DNA from: a virus
Direction: 5' to 3' (one strand)
Length of the DNA stretch: 58,269 nt
Virus record (IMG/VR): IMGVR_UViG_3300017728_000008
Coordinates: 1-58,269 of that record
Position numbers and translations under genes: made by a program. The notes under the pieces were generated by a model. The model searched no databases, was not told the DNA's origin, and worked only from the letters and a program-made list of their open reading frames with translations. Positions 2,905 to 14,825 of this stretch are shown here, piece after piece; position 1 is the stretch's first letter; every line of letters starts with the position of its first letter.

Positions 2905-3306
2905 CTATTTTTTATTTTTAATTTTTTCCCAAGACCTTCCTCCAAAATAAGAAGCAATAACGGTTGCAAGAATTAACTGCAAAAGCGATATCCATTCTTC
3001 TTTAACTTCAAAATTAATTGACCCTGCTTCTATAAAAATCAAAAGCATTGTACAAACAATTAAAAAGATAAGTACCATGGGTCTTACGTTCTTCGAAAGC
3101 CAAGAATCTGAAGACATATCTTCCCTCCACCTTTCAGTAACATTTTTTTGCATATCAGCCTCAGCTTTTATAAAAGTTTCTGTTAACTCTTTTTCAAATC
3201 GAGCACGTTCTTCTTTGCTAAAAGTGTGAGTAGCTACTATATTGCTAATTTTTTCGGCTATTCCTCCACCTATCTTTCCAAATATTTTATTTAGTATTTC
3301 TTTCAT
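2905..3306 (-). CDS. Putative holin (3TM-like holin family)
   Basis: 133 residues. The N-terminal half is an amphipathic, charged helix (EKISNIVATHTFSKEERARF). Then comes SWLSKNVRPMVLIFLIVC with a first membrane segment (about residues 77-95) and a second (about 105-122, LLQLILATVIASYFGGRSW), ending in a Lys-rich tail. The WLxKNVRPMV pattern followed by two hydrophobic helices is typical of the GTA-type 3TM holins. The gene overlaps the amidase gene by 4 nt, forming a lysis cassette. It would form pores in the inner membrane to release the amidase. Confidence 0.8.
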   Translation of the reverse strand: MKEILNKIFGKIGGGIAEKISNIVATHTFSKEERARFEKELTETFIKAEADMQKNVTERWREDMSSDSWLSKNVRPMVLIFLIVCTMLLIFIEAGSINFEVKEEWISLLQLILATVIASYFGGRSWEKIKNKK

Positions 3307-8139: not shown

Positions 8140-9749
8140 TTGTTAGAGGTTTCATAACTACGTGCCATTGTCACGATAGCATTAGTTGATAGTATCGTTA
8201 CGGCAACTGAAACTGCATTTTGCAGAGCCTGTCTTGTTACTTTAACAGGGTCTATAACTCCAAGAGTCATTAAGTATCCGTATTTTTCTTTCTTAACATC
8301 ATAACCGTAATTGTTTCCTTTAACATCATGGTATATAGATTTAAAATCTAAACCTGCGTTATCTAAGATTTGAATTAACGGAGCTGACAAAGATTCAGCT
8401 AAAATTGCTAAAGCAATTTTTTTTGATAAATTTTCTTCTTTATTATATCTAATAGCACAAGATTTGCTATGATTAAATAGTGTTAATCCACCACCGGGCA
8501 ATATACCTTCTTCAAGAGCGGAGCGAACGGCACACACCGCATCATCCACTCTGTCATATAATTCTTTTTGTTCAAGGTCAGTATTCCCTCCTACATATAC
8601 CACTCCAATACCTCCTGTTAAAGAAGCAATTCTTTTGTTAAGAAATTCTTTATCATCTTTTCTTTTAGCTTCTTCAAGTGCTTCTTGTAGTTGGGTTATT
8701 CTATCAACAACCTCTTGGTTAGATTCCTTGTCGTCTTTAACGATGACAGTTGAGTCACGTCCAACTATCACCTTGGAACAATGACCCAAGTCGTTGAACT
8801 TAATCAAACTCAAATCATCGCCTGTCTTTTCGCTAAAATATGTAGCACCTACACTTATTGCAATATCCTGCATAAGCTCGTGTTGCCTGTATCCAAAATC
8901 CGGAGGAACTATGTTACAAATTTTTAATCCATTCTTTACTACGTTTGCAGCTAAGGTGTTTATTACATTGGTAGAGCACGGAGCAATAATTAAAAGTTTC
9001 TTACCCTCTTGTATGATTGGTTTTAATATATTTTCAATTTGAAGTATGTTATTAATCTCTCCATCACATACCAAAACGTAAGTGTCTTCAAGGACACATT
9101 CATCTCTTTTTTGGTCGTTTATAAACAAGCCTGAAGAATATCCTCTTTTTATTTTAATACCTTTTGTTGTTTCGTAATAGGTAGCGGAGGTTTTACTATT
9201 TTCAACAGTAACTACACCATCCTTGCCTACACTCTCATATACATCTGCAATAATGTCCCCAATAGTTTTATCATTGTTGGCTGAGATGACTGCAACATCA
9301 CGCAATCTTTTAGCGTCTAATTTTTTTCCTTTTACTTTTAAATCTTTTGATATCAATTTCGTTATGTCCACTAAATGCCTGAGCACTTCGGTTCTATTAA
9401 CTTTGTCGGTTATTAATTCGGTACCTGCATTAACTAAAGCCTCAGCAAGTACAATAGCCGTGGTAGTCCCATCTCCTGCTGAAGATGCGGTTCTGTCGGC
9501 TGCCTCTTTCATCATTCTAACCGCAAGGTTTTCTACCGGGTCTAATAATGAAATTGATTTCGCTACAGTCACACCATCCTTAGTTACCGTAATTCCATGT
9601 AAGTGTTCGGGTGATTCTATTAACACAGTATTACCTCGTGGTCCAAGTGTGGACTTTACTGCGTTTGCTATTTGTTTTATTCCTTGAATTAATTTGTTTC
9701 TTCCCTCATCGGAGAAATGAAGTTCTTTTGGATTGAATCCTTGTTGCAT
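8136..9749 (-). CDS. groEL: Phage-encoded chaperonin GroEL
   Basis: 537 residues, close to the bacterial 540-550. Hallmarks in order: VKSTLGPRGNTVLIE, GITVTKDGVTVAKSI, ASSAGDGTTTAIVLAEAL (ATP site), the apical domain, LTGGIGVVYVGG, DAVCAVRSALEEGILPGGGL, ending in YETSNK without the usual Gly-Gly-Met tail. It forms the double-ring folding machine with GroES; phage-encoded full-length GroEL is uncommon. It has its own promoter (TTTG-N17-TACCTTTG). A near-copy of the dispersed palindrome with one mismatch lies at 9082-9097, encoding VLEDT. Confidence 0.96.
   Translation of the reverse strand: MQQGFNPKELHFSDEGRNKLIQGIKQIANAVKSTLGPRGNTVLIESPEHLHGITVTKDGVTVAKSISLLDPVENLAVRMMKEAADRTASSAGDGTTTAIVLAEALVNAGTELITDKVNRTEVLRHLVDITKLISKDLKVKGKKLDAKRLRDVAVISANNDKTIGDIIADVYESVGKDGVVTVENSKTSATYYETTKGIKIKRGYSSGLFINDQKRDECVLEDTYVLVCDGEINNILQIENILKPIIQEGKKLLIIAPCSTNVINTLAANVVKNGLKICNIVPPDFGYRQHELMQDIAISVGATYFSEKTGDDLSLIKFNDLGHCSKVIVGRDSTVIVKDDKESNQEVVDRITQLQEALEEAKRKDDKEFLNKRIASLTGGIGVVYVGGNTDLEQKELYDRVDDAVCAVRSALEEGILPGGGLTLFNHSKSCAIRYNKEENLSKKIALAILAESLSAPLIQILDNAGLDFKSIYHDVKGNNYGYDVKKEKYGYLMTLGVIDPVKVTRQALQNAVSVAVTILSTNAIVTMARSYETSNK
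9082..9097. repeat. Imperfect copy of the dispersed palindrome inside groEL
   Basis: GTGTCTTCAAGGACAC: one substitution from the perfect 16-base palindrome. May be chance or a decayed copy, because VLEDT is a plausible GroEL sequence. Confidence 0.35.
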
Positions 9750-9773: not shown

Positions 9774-9802
9774 CAAAGGTAACAAAATAAATTTAAAACA
9801 AA
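9774..9802 (-). promoter_or_regulatory. Promoter of the chaperonin operon
   Basis: Minus strand shows TTTG (9799-9802), a 17-nt spacer and TACCTTTG (9774-9781), 24 nt before the groEL ATG. This matches the Bacteroidota -33/-7 pattern well. Confidence 0.7.
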
Positions 9803-11454: not shown

Positions 11455-12459
11455 ATGAGAGATTTATCAAACAACGGAGTTCAGTTCACAACCTTAAACG
11501 ACACCACAAGACGTGGTCAAGTGAGCGGTTATCATTCTAAACCGGACCCAATTTTCAGAACCAAAGCAACCGCTCAAGACGTTAGCGGTTTAAAATCAGT
11601 TGACCGCAAGAACATTAGTTTTGATGGCACAGAGTACGAGAGCAATTTCAGAATTGGTTTCGAAGTAGAGAAAGCACGTCTTCACAGAGGAGCAGTTGAG
11701 GAGTATCCATTATTTTGTGGGTTCGAAACAGATTCTTCTTGTGGTTATGAAGCGGTTACTCACGTTTTACCTTTGGTAGCGAAGTCAATGTGGAGAACGA
11801 AAGTTTTCAACATGTTTCACCAAGCTAAGAAGATAATTGATGACGAGTACTCACCATCAGATGCTTCTTGTGGTGGTCATATGACTATCTCTGCTGAGGG
11901 TATGACCGGAGCTGAGTTGATGAGTAGAATTAGAAAATTCACACCAATCATCTTATCTATATTTCGTAAGAGGTTAACCAACAGATATTGCAATGGCAAT
12001 CCGCAGTTGTTACCAATGGGAGAGGGAGTTATGTCTTCCGGTTCATCGAAGTATGTTGTCTGTAAAGATACCGGTTTCGGTGTCGAGTTCAGAATACCAT
12101 CGAGAATTACATCTGTTAAACAGATGATAAGACGTTACGAGTTAATGTACATCTTGATGGACTTTGCAGTAAACCAACCGGATGCAACAACGAGAAAGTT
12201 TTACAATGCAGTTAAACCAATCCTGTTGAGTATGTACGAGAAAGACGAAGTGAAAGTTGAAAAGCTAATCACGTTAGCAAGAGATTTCGAGAAGTTCGTC
12301 AAGACCGGTAAAGTTGACCATACTACTGCCGGATGGCTCGAGGGGTGGTGGTCAAGTAGAAACTACTCTTTAGGTAAGTACAGAAATTACTACAAGAGAA
12401 ATTTCAGACCGGATAGCGATGTTGTGCTACAATGGAGAGGTTCAAATCGAATGTTCTAA
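11455..12459 (+). CDS. Amidoligase-family enzyme (COOH-NH2 ligase)
   Basis: 334 residues from ATG 11455. Motifs of the Amidoligase_2 family, which has a glutamine-synthetase/GCS-like fold: FRIGFEVEK (65-73, metal-binding Glu), ETDSSCGYEAVTH, CGGHMTIS (near 140-146) and GFGVEFRIPSRI (near 208-219). Such enzymes use ATP to join a carboxylate to an amine; in phages they are found with GAT-II and GGCT domains, as with the fusion at 13635. The substrate is unknown; a peptide tag, cell-wall or small-molecule product is possible. Followed by a hairpin and hammerhead ribozyme. GC is visibly higher than in the small early genes. Confidence 0.82.
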   Translation: MRDLSNNGVQFTTLNDTTRRGQVSGYHSKPDPIFRTKATAQDVSGLKSVDRKNISFDGTEYESNFRIGFEVEKARLHRGAVEEYPLFCGFETDSSCGYEAVTHVLPLVAKSMWRTKVFNMFHQAKKIIDDEYSPSDASCGGHMTISAEGMTGAELMSRIRKFTPIILSIFRKRLTNRYCNGNPQLLPMGEGVMSSGSSKYVVCKDTGFGVEFRIPSRITSVKQMIRRYELMYILMDFAVNQPDATTRKFYNAVKPILLSMYEKDEVKVEKLITLARDFEKFVKTGKVDHTTAGWLEGWWSSRNYSLGKYRNYYKRNFRPDSDVVLQWRGSNRMF

Positions 12460-12467
12460 TCCACATA

Positions 12468-12493
12468 GGGTGGTGTCTTCAAAGACACCATCC
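12468..12493 (+). repeat. Hairpin abutting ribozyme 1, containing palindrome copy 3
   Basis: GGGTGGTGTCTT-CA-AAGACACCATCC folds into a stem of about 11 bp with one G-U pair. Palindrome copy at 12473-12488. The next base (12494) is the first of ribozyme stem III, so the helices could stack. It begins 9 nt after the amidoligase stop and would cap the 3' end of the cleaved upstream mRNA. Confidence 0.85.
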
Positions 12494-12544
12494 TCTGTCG
12501 AGAGATGAGTGTCTCTCCTGATGAGTCCAAAAGGACGAAACAGA
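12494..12544 (+). ncRNA. Type III hammerhead ribozyme 1
   Basis: Stem III UCUGU (12494-12498) pairs with ACAGA (12540-12544). Cleavage is expected after C12499 (GUC). Stem I GAGAGA/UCUCUC (12500-12505, 12512-12517) with loop UGAGUG. Core CUGAUGA 12518-12524. Stem II GUCC-AAAA-GGAC (12525-12536). GAAA 12537-12540. All catalytic-core positions are intact. Lies between the amidoligase gene and the gene at 12565, so it should split the early mRNA. The 5'-OH product would begin with the stem I hairpin. Confidence 0.93.
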
Positions 12545-13042: not shown

Positions 13043-13229
13043 AGTAGAATATTTTATCAGTATGAAAAGTTGCTACGGCAATTACACAAGATTCAAAAAG
13101 GAGTTCAATGACGAACGTCACTTTGAAAATTGGTACGACTTTATGTCCAACAAGGGACATAAGATAATCGGAGTAGAAAAAATCAAATCAAACTTAGACA
13201 GGGTAAAAGATAAATTTGGTTATGTCTAA
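13032..13229 (+). CDS. Hypothetical early protein, 65 aa
   Basis: Reads MKTKVEYFISMKSCYGNYTR, rich in aromatic residues (HFENWYDFMSNKGHKIIGVE). No domain recognised. The ATG overlaps the previous stop region by 11 nt. Likely small, soluble and early. Confidence 0.72.
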   Translation: MKTKVEYFISMKSCYGNYTRFKKEFNDERHFENWYDFMSNKGHKIIGVEKIKSNLDRVKDKFGYV

Positions 13230-13246
13230 ATTTTGTCTTACCTTTG
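13215..13246 (+). promoter_or_regulatory. Promoter for the small membrane-protein gene
   Basis: TTTG at 13215-13218, 20-nt spacer, TACCTTTG at 13239-13246, 43 nt before the ATG at 13290. Allows the downstream part of the operon, including ribozymes 2 and 3, to be transcribed separately. Confidence 0.65.
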
Positions 13247-13289: not shown

Positions 13290-13505
13290 ATGAAACTTTC
13301 AAACATTATTCAAAACACAATCCTTTCAATCGTAACATTATTTGTAATCGCATCAAGCGTAAGACTGCTAATTCATATCGCAGTAACTGAGCAATTTGGT
13401 TTGCCTCAGTTCCTCGCATTCGGATTAGTATTCGGCTTCATCGGTTTCTTATACTCTCTTATCATTGGAATCGTAGTGAACGAGTGGAAGTCATCAATGG
13501 CTTAG
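13290..13505 (+). CDS. Small inner-membrane protein, 71 aa
   Basis: Two hydrophobic segments (about residues 8-30, ILSIVTLFVIASSVRLLIHI, and 40-64, FLAFGLVFGFIGFLYSLIIG) separated by a short polar turn with EQFG; no cleavable signal peptide. Sits between the amidoligase and GAT-II/GGCT genes and is followed by hairpin plus ribozyme 2. It could anchor the modification system at the membrane or exclude superinfecting phage; both are guesses from topology and context. Confidence 0.75.
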   Translation: MKLSNIIQNTILSIVTLFVIASSVRLLIHIAVTEQFGLPQFLAFGLVFGFIGFLYSLIIGIVVNEWKSSMA

Positions 13506-13515
13506 ACTCTACTAA

Positions 13516-13538
13516 GGGTGGTGTATCTCACACCATCC
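13516..13538 (+). repeat. Variant hairpin abutting ribozyme 2
   Basis: GGGTGGTGT-ATCTC-ACACCATCC: same basal stem as the other two ribozyme hairpins (9 bp, one G-U), but the apical CTTCAAAG is replaced by ATCTC. Shows that the base of the hairpin belongs to the ribozyme cassette while the apex can vary. Confidence 0.8.
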
Positions 13539-13587
13539 TCGTATCGAGATGTGTATCTCGACTGATGATACCAAAAGGTTGAAACGG
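13539..13587 (+). ncRNA. Type III hammerhead ribozyme 2
   Basis: Stem III UCGU/ACGG (13539-13542, 13584-13587, one G-U), cleavage after A13543 (GUA). Stem I UCGAGAU/AUCUCGA (13544-13550, 13555-13561) with loop GUGU. Core CUGAUGA 13562-13568. Stem II UACC-AAAA-GGUU with a U-U at its base. GAAA 13581-13584. Stem I shares no sequence with ribozyme 1 yet pairs fully, so pairing is conserved while sequence is not. Stem III is weak, so activity may be slower. Confidence 0.85.
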
Positions 13588-13599
13588 AAACAGAGTTCG

Positions 13600-13615
13600 G
13601 TGTCTTCAAAGACAC
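13600..13615. repeat. Dispersed palindrome, copy 4 (after ribozyme 2)
   Basis: GTGTCTTCAAAGACAC flanked by CG...CG, extending the stem to 18-20 bases. Lies in the leader of the GAT-II/GGCT gene, 19 nt before its ATG, so a folded hairpin could restrict ribosome access. Confidence 0.85.
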
Positions 13616-13634
13616 CGCTCACAATTCAAACATT

Positions 13635-14741
13635 ATGTGTATAATTATTATCAAACAAAAAGGCAAAGATGTGCCAAGAGAAGTTCTCAAAACATCTTCC
13701 AAAATCAATCCTCACGGATTAGGTATTGTATGGCTCGACACGTTCGAGGTTACATATCACAAGTCAAAAGAGTTCGGTGTGTTGGATAACGACAGACCCT
13801 ACATCGCTCACTTTAGGTATGCTACAATAGGTAAAGTTTGCAAGGCAAACACACACCCATTTGTATGTGGCAGAAATACAGACGAGTTACTAATGATGAA
13901 CGGAACGATTAAAGGTTATGGTAGTCCAACAATGACAGACACCGAAGACCTTGCAATCAAGTTGGGTTCAACACCAAGGCATGGTTGGAAACAATCGCTA
14001 TCTAAATTCGATGCAAGGTTTGTTTCAATCAACAAAAGAACACGTTCGTTTCAAATCTACAACAAGAACCTGTTCACTATTCGGGATGGAGTTTGGTACT
14101 CCAAGAACAATGTACTGCAAGACAATCTTATGGCGGTCTATGGTACATTAAGAAAAGGCGGTAGCAATTACTATCGGCATCTAAAAAACGAAAAGCATTT
14201 AGGCACCGGAAAGACCACAGATAAATACCCTATGGTTTCTAATGGTATACCTTACTTGCTTGAGAAAAGAGGCGAAGGAGACAATGTGGTGGTTGATGTT
14301 TTTAAAGTCAGCGATATGGCGATGAATAAAATAGATATTCTTGAGGGACATCCGGAGTGGTACCGCAGAAAGAAAGTTGACATAAGTTTAAAAGGAAAAG
14401 TATACCCCTGTTGGATATACTTTAACGAGGGTGCAGAGACAATGTGGAACAAACAGAACCACATAGCAGACTACCAAGCGATACGAACGATTAGTTCGTT
14501 TGGCATAAAACGAACGTATGATACGTTTGAAGACCTTGAGACCACGTGGATTGATGATGTACCTACGTGTACTCAATTAGAGTTTGCAGACTTAGAGGTA
14601 GAGGAGTTCAATAAAGAGAACGAGTCCCCGGTCTGTATAGATTGTTGTCACGACTTAGAGTACGATGGTTTTTCTCATTACCATTGTAATGGTTGTGATG
14701 GTTGGTTCTCCTATAACGAAGTGATGCACTTTCAAGGATAG
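13635..14741 (+). CDS. Class-II glutamine amidotransferase / GGCT (AIG2) / zinc-ribbon fusion
   Basis: 368 residues. N-terminal Ntn-type amidotransferase: MCIIIIKQKG places the nucleophile Cys at position 2, followed by GLGIVW, AHFRYATIGKVCKANTHPF and LMMNGTIKGYG. From about 165 comes a gamma-glutamylcyclotransferase-like domain: LMAVYGTLRKGGSNYYRHL and IDILEGHPEWYRRKKVDI. The C-terminus is a four-Cys ribbon, CIDCCHDLEYDG...YHCNGCDGWF. GAT-II would release or transfer ammonia from glutamine, and GGCT would cleave gamma-glutamyl-type bonds. Paired with the amidoligase at 11455 and enclosed by ribozymes 2 and 3. The combination and the zinc ribbon suggest a dedicated conjugation/deconjugation system; the target is unknown. 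Confidence 0.85.
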   Translation: MCIIIIKQKGKDVPREVLKTSSKINPHGLGIVWLDTFEVTYHKSKEFGVLDNDRPYIAHFRYATIGKVCKANTHPFVCGRNTDELLMMNGTIKGYGSPTMTDTEDLAIKLGSTPRHGWKQSLSKFDARFVSINKRTRSFQIYNKNLFTIRDGVWYSKNNVLQDNLMAVYGTLRKGGSNYYRHLKNEKHLGTGKTTDKYPMVSNGIPYLLEKRGEGDNVVVDVFKVSDMAMNKIDILEGHPEWYRRKKVDISLKGKVYPCWIYFNEGAETMWNKQNHIADYQAIRTISSFGIKRTYDTFEDLETTWIDDVPTCTQLEFADLEVEEFNKENESPVCIDCCHDLEYDGFSHYHCNGCDGWFSYNEVMHFQG

Positions 14742-14748
14742 CCACAAA

Positions 14749-14774
14749 GGGTGGTGTCTTCAAAGACACCATCC
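14749..14774 (+). repeat. Hairpin abutting ribozyme 3, containing palindrome copy 5
   Basis: Same 26-base hairpin as at 12468 (GGGTGGTGTCTT-CA-AAGACACCATCC); palindrome copy at 14754-14769. Begins 7 nt after the stop of the GAT-II/GGCT gene and runs straight into ribozyme stem III. Confidence 0.87.
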
Positions 14775-14825
14775 TCTGTTCACGGATGTGTGTCCGTGCT
14801 GATGAAGTCAAAAGACAGAAACAGG
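14775..14825 (+). ncRNA. Type III hammerhead ribozyme 3
   Basis: Stem III UCUGU/ACAGG (14775-14779, 14821-14825, one U-G), cleavage after U14780 (GUU). Stem I CACGGA/UCCGUG (14781-14786, 14793-14798), loop UGUGUG. Core CUGAUGA 14799-14805. Stem II AGUC-AAAA-GACA with an A-A at its base. GAAA 14818-14821. The loop I (UGUGUG) and loop II (AAAA) sequences resemble those of the other two copies, which fits loop-loop contacts needed for fast cleavage. Confidence 0.9.

Follow-up and report, generated by a model that had tools for sequence, protein, structure and literature searches.

The window analysed here is the whole of IMG/VR virus record IMGVR_UViG_3300017728_000008 (58,269 nt, positions 1 to 58,269). 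In a structural scan for type III hammerhead ribozymes (HHRs), three + strand sites emerged: HH1 at 12494-12544, HH2 at 13539-13587 and HH3 at 14775-14825, in tandem at a spacing of 1.0–1.2 kb. The second, a complete 49-nt motif, had been proposed in a first-pass annotation; the independent scan returned identical coordinates and the same GUA site, on the + strand. The features of the region are:

11455..12459 (+): 334-aa gene upstream of HH1 (22 homologues)
12468..12493 (+): 11-bp hairpin directly before HH1 (z -5.2)
12494..12544 (+): HH1, GUC site, G-C at 10.1-11.1, after gene 11455-12459 (Rfam, scan, model R1)
13215..13246 (+): promoter-like match of the Bacteroidota type, ahead of the 71-aa gene (evidence weak)
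13290..13505 (+): 71-aa gene upstream of HH2 (ORF; homologues in loci L083, L003 and others)
13516..13538 (+): hairpin GGGUGGUGUAUCUCACACCAUCC ending directly before HH2 stem III (-14.4 kcal/mol, z -4.8)
13539..13587 (+): HH2, type III HHR (scan; model R1, 67.9 bits; orthologues in L083 and L003)
13539-13542 (+): HH2 stem III, 5' strand, UCGU
13543 (+): HH2 A17 (GUA site)
13543..13544 (+): HH2 cleavage site expected from hammerhead chemistry, A17/U1.1
13544-13549/13556-13561 (+): HH2 stem I, UCGAGA/UCUCGA, 6/6 paired
13550-13555 (+): HH2 loop I, UGUGUA
13562-13568 (+): HH2 core, CUGAUGA
13569-13580 (+): HH2 stem II, U10.1 (13569) and U11.1 (13580), then ACC/GGU, loop AAAA
13581-13584 (+): HH2 GAAA
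13584-13587 (+): HH2 stem III, 3' strand, ACGG
13598..13617 (+): CGGUGUCUUCAAAGACACCG, second hairpin, within the leader that separates HH2 from the GGCT start
13635..14741 (+): GGCT (AIG2-like) gene downstream of HH2 (GGACT, PF06094, E 2e-20)
14749..14774 (+): 11-bp hairpin directly before HH3 (z -6.3)
14775..14825 (+): HH3, GUU site, stem II beginning with A·A then G-C; follows the GGCT gene (scan, model R1)

HH2 does lie where first annotated, between the two co-directional genes that were described there as membrane-protein and GAT-II/GGCT genes. The 71-aa protein is hydrophobic, judged by eye, with no match in a Pfam search; the downstream protein adds weak GATase matches to PF06094 (GATase_6, E 0.0014, below its cut-off), and its N-terminus is possibly a class II amidotransferase domain. 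The 334-aa protein is a possible amidoligase relative, with GxExEK, CGGH and ExR motifs invariant in 22 homologues and an Amidoligase_2 match (E 0.006) in one member only.

On fold and comparison, HH2 is a type III hammerhead. Both parts of its core, C3UGANGA9 (CTGATGA in the DNA) and G12AAA15.1, are intact, the U16.1-A15.1 pair is present and H17 is not G; loops I and II are closed and stem III is open, as in the type III layout. The earlier description of the stems also held. Stem I is fully complementary, as are those of HH1 (GAGAGA/UCUCUC) and HH3 (CACGGA/UCCGUG), with other sequences; the 3–4 bp attributed to stem III are three Watson-Crick pairs and one G·U; and the U-U noted at the base of stem II is U10.1·U11.1, followed by three pairs. 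It replaces the nearly invariant G10.1-C11.1, which is a usual but not a required feature of type III HHRs. Compared with the type III family (RF00008), the window HHRs share the core CUGANGA/GAAA, the three stems (I and II closed by loops, III open) and an NUH site, and differ in the U10.1·U11.1 of HH2, the A·A of HH3 in place of G-C, and very small loops.

Rfam at gathering level gave no match in the window, and a dedicated structural scan and covariance model were therefore used. RF00008 scored HH1 at 47.6 bits (E 1e-8), 0.9 bit short of the 48.5 cut-off, which is a detection threshold and not a structural requirement; HH2 and HH3 were unlisted even at E up to 10. The scanner had no matches in 20 shuffled windows or in 2.19 Mb of shuffled loci. 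Covariance model R1, trained on 90 HHRs including the three from the window, gave those three 67.9–78.7 bits, with the next best at 11.5.

Related hammerheads and their gene borders

About 130 IMG/VR loci were gathered by protein searches, in which HHR presence was no criterion. Ninety distinct HHRs (three from the window), mostly from related ~60-kb virus contigs, align without gaps, and loop I UGWGUR and loop II AAAA or GAAA recur among the HHRs found. In this alignment 95.1% of cells are paired, compared with 70.2% when shuffled, a percentage that is partly by construction because the scanner required stems, although the variety of pairs is not. Covariation is 0.734, against 0.242 for shuffled alignments and 0.05–0.12 for slid pairings, with double changes at all six stem I pairs. 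Together with two orthologues of the HH2 site, this bears out the suggestion that stem I carries compensatory evidence. Of 50 related virus records, 35 had one to four HHRs by the covariance model (weakest E 2.4e-11), and the other 15, including MW202828, had no match at E 0.01; a search of six related HHR-less loci with Rfam found no other RNA family.

The strand of the HHR is that of the neighbouring marker gene in all 141 comparable cases. Two borders recur, that after the homologue of gene 11455-12459 (58 of the 141; HH1 in the window) and that after the GGCT gene (30; HH3). At the HH2 border, orthologous HHRs follow the 71-aa gene in L083 (56% identity) and L003 (48%); both keep A17 and U·U, and their stem I changes are compensated.

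The hairpin before the ribozyme abuts stem III, with no nucleotide between them, in 125 of 155 HHRs, and the 45 nt upstream of HHRs fold with a mean of -15.1 kcal/mol (-7.3 shuffled). Contigs without any of the 13 window proteins searched also have an upstream hairpin (-13.3 vs. -6.7 kcal/mol shuffled), with abutment present and less strict. Since many HHR leaders in these contigs have a Shine-Dalgarno-like GGAG, the arrangement is not confined to a single host group. The first ATG is at a median of 21–22 nt after the HHR. A + strand terminator search found no terminator-like site and no T-run after any of the three window hairpins; an intrinsic terminator at 13516-13538 was considered and rejected on the T-run criterion. 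Similar small HHRs with a preceding hairpin, often with GTTCTTT next, were seen among the genome contigs (loci L289-L408) in many Patescibacteria assemblies.

MW202828 is the nearest phage in GenBank (terminase identity 74%); elemo phages of Flavobacterium and other flavobacterial phages come next, with identities of about 50% or less, and the host of the window's virus is therefore likely to belong to the Bacteroidota. No GenBank phage matched the HH1 or the HH2 module in similarity searches. A cultured Flavobacterium elemo phage does carry an HHR (MT497078.1, 28912-28968, - strand; 39 bits), with A17 and G-C, 14 nt ahead of a minus-strand gene. Altogether 68 records of cultured Flavobacterium sp. 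BAL314 elemo phages contain the stretch at no less than 99% identity, which provides a laboratory system.

Position 17 and the base of stem II

The identity of H17 goes with that of the 10.1-11.1 pair in four sets of HHRs, with Fisher p-values that ignore relatedness:

Related contigs: A/UU 34, A/GC 13, C/UU 1, C/GC 78 (p 7e-19)
Other virus contigs: A/UU 40, A/GC 7, C/UU 4, C/GC 26 (p 3e-10)
Genome contigs: A/UU 4, A/GC 5, C/UU 0, C/GC 46 (p 4e-4)
Type I HHRs: A/UU 5, A/GC 4, C/UU 0, C/GC 50 (p 3e-5)

When H17 was permuted within contigs, a mean of 117.5 and a maximum of 136 HHRs were concordant in 20,000 permutations, compared with 146 observed, and 22 of 24 informative contigs are fully concordant. 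In the related contigs, 10.1 and 11.1 by far exceed all other positions in mutual information with position 17; the signal is weaker or non-significant in the other two contig sets. Tree tests gave no significance, with too few independent pairs and almost none in the opposite direction, so the case for coupling rests on the four sample sets and the within-contig permutation.

A17 with U·U thus looks like a recurrent alternative core and not like decay, since the association of A17 with U·U, and that of C17 with G-C, is seen in each of the four sets. A natural U10.1-U11.1 was reported by Perreault et al. (2011; PMC3088659), who called it the best tolerated mismatch at that pair; the passages of that paper considered here make no mention of its coupling to A17. 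With this recurrence, and with its retention in the L083 and L003 orthologues, the U·U of HH2 should not be taken for damage. Where A·A occupies 10.1-11.1 the next pair is always G-C (17/17), compared with 7 of 183 in G-C types, so the A·A may be an insertion beneath the usual G-C pair.

Other RNA elements at the same borders

Where relatives lack a type III HHR at a border, its place may be taken by a type I HHR or by a minimal tRNA-like element. Type I HHRs number 61 distinct examples anywhere in the loci (0.7 in shuffles). Their own stem III is a hairpin just 5' of the cut, and the upstream stop codon is directly before C3 in 17 of 57. Five loci (L243, L249, L284, L121 and L211) have many of them at gene borders, up to eight per locus, and the 5' strand of stem I often ends in TAA right before CTGATGA.

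The tRNA-like elements consist of a 7-bp acceptor, a short linker usually with a D-loop-like AUGGU, and a T-arm with UUCGANU, often with a CUAA tail; there is no anticodon arm. The results rest on strict scans only, one with 39 matches (1 in shuffles), nine of those among the matches listed having the short linker, and another with 20 distinct matches (2.7 in shuffles). A loose scan was discarded (63 matches vs. 62.5 in shuffles). ARAGORN and Rfam did not call these elements in the loci checked. They lie a few bases past stop codons on the coding strand, for example at L131:3104-3148, L130:2961-3002, L110:7139-7179, L017:3050-3090 (also given as 3050-3095), L019:999-1039 and others.

Counts at the two recurrent borders, in which the numbers of exchanges are small, are:

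After the 11455-12459 homologue: type III HHR 64, type I HHR 1, tRNA-like element 4, HHR-like core 3, hairpin only 12, none 4
After the GGCT gene: type III HHR 33, type I HHR 1, tRNA-like element 3, HHR-like core 0, hairpin only 26, none 27

HHR-like cores with an extra U between A9 and G10.1 (for example CTGATGAT-GACTC..GAGTC-GAAA) follow the 11455 homologue in L087, L235, L136 and L089, and were overlooked by the strict scan.

Such exchange is what would be expected if cutting were selected. The strongest case for this is that dissimilar RNAs, with being cut as their one shared property, substitute for one another at a single position. The tRNA-like elements are, we infer, cut by host RNase P. 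Overall, the pattern suggests that phages of the HH2 lineage punctuate their messages with RNA elements at gene borders. A fuller reading could go either way: operons would be punctuated by interchangeable cutting elements (a type III HHR behind a hairpin, a type I HHR with its own, or a tRNA-like element), with hammerhead cores in which position 17 is coupled to 10.1-11.1, including a U17 that often accompanies A·A.

Similar modes of processing are familiar elsewhere. In phage T7 the host protein RNase III cuts the early polycistronic RNA at sites between early genes, leaving mRNAs whose 3' ends are hairpins; the window RNA would resemble it in mode and in its hairpin ends but would cut itself, and no membership in that system is claimed. 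Mitochondrial transcripts are punctuated by tRNAs, and the tRNA-like elements of the relatives likewise occupy borders where others have an HHR, although these lack the anticodon arm, their processing by RNase P is an extrapolation, and the window has none.

HH2 as a putative mRNA border

HH2 is probably (at roughly three chances in four) a self-cleaving type III hammerhead working as an mRNA border, cleavage being predicted from its structure and conservation. The polycistronic transcript would cleave itself after A13543. The mRNA of the 71-aa gene would then end in a stable hairpin, five further nucleotides (UCGUA) and a 2',3'-cyclic phosphate; such a hairpin 3' end would follow from cleavage directly behind a hairpin without a T-run and would presumably stabilise the message. 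The GGCT mRNA would gain its own 5'-OH start on the stem I hairpin. HH1, HH2 and HH3 together could divide the operon at three points, with no protein nuclease involved. A precedent is the Agrobacterium triple HHR, which was cleaved when transcribed in E. coli (PMC3088659). Counting against this reading, HH2 is among the weakest predicted folds, and the stem III 5' strand is paired with the core in its predicted minimum free energy (MFE) fold; moreover, the group can do without the cut, given the 15 records without a match and the many hairpin-only or empty junctions.

The first-pass view that its stems are weak is borne out by a predicted native secondary structure of -7.4 kcal/mol, the 257th most stable of 268, and HH2 might for that reason cut more slowly. 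If, as the first annotation proposed, it were slower than HH1 and HH3, part of the transcripts would keep the 71-aa and GGCT genes joined and expression would be tuned. The short stem III, whose G·U is unique among the 90 aligned HHRs, and the competing MFE fold are consistent with this. However, the cleavage rate of natural HHRs is set by tertiary loop contacts, which lie outside the energy score, and the A17/U·U core is recurrent and orthologously kept, so that graded processing is a tentative suggestion, clearly weaker than the border reading. A more drastic version would make HH2 a decaying passenger beside a hairpin that is itself the functional part, as terminator or attenuator. Many HHR-less borders do keep a similar hairpin, and the predicted stability of HH2 is low, but the + strand hairpins have no T-run, the core is intact and stem changes are compensated in the orthologues; this seems improbable.

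Control of cleavage by a ligand, a protein or the ribosome, with the HHR as a 5'-leader device for GGCT translation, would fit the short distance from HHRs to the first ATG and the second hairpin between HH2 and GGCT. It is nevertheless unlikely: loops of 6 and 4 nt leave scant room for an aptamer, the genes that follow HHRs are unrelated to each other, and these genes are retained in relatives without an HHR. HHRs can also ligate, and three in tandem 1.0–1.2 kb apart could in principle release RNAs that are then religated into circles. This is very improbable, as many relatives have a single HHR and circular or spliced products were looked for with published tandem bacterial HHRs and went undetected (PMC3088659).

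For the border reading itself there is a clear antecedent. Perreault et al. (2011; PMC3088659) described clustered prophage HHRs that flank single genes (e.g., the Agrobacterium ardA triple) and proposed that they process long phage transcripts to mRNAs of gene length. With clusters, U10.1-U11.1 and the processing idea already described there, HH2 alone is a new hammerhead with known variation. The window resembles those clusters in having several HHRs flanking single genes and U10.1-U11.1; it differs in belonging to a large phage lineage with orthologous sites, a hairpin abutting each, and borders that may instead carry type I HHRs or tRNA-like elements. Neither the adjoining hairpin nor the replacement by tRNA-like elements nor the H17 coupling was found in the open-access literature searched; within it, what appears to be new is the border module, in which a hairpin abuts the ribozyme and the latter can be exchanged for a type I HHR or a tRNA-like element. 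The role of small ribozymes in bacteria and phages is still termed unclear (PMC7151607; PMC10085705). Cutters at orthologous borders, mostly by a 3' hairpin and sometimes tRNA-like instead, make the mRNA-processing idea directly testable, and the coupling of position 17 to 10.1-11.1 could be tested at the bench with four short RNAs.

Some other features of the window may be noted. The pattern behind the promoter-like match before the 71-aa gene has nine matches in the window where 4.5 are expected, only twice chance; a Bacteroidota-type match is also found at 9774-9802, ahead of a GroEL-like phage gene (8136-9749, - strand). Copies of a near-palindrome, GTGTCTTCAAAGACAC, are scattered over the genome, some at the ends of genes and others within them, and relatives have it too; in the window it is found at 9080, 10560, 11423, 12471, 13598, 14752, 15638, 19148, 23535, 31865, 50538 and 57713.
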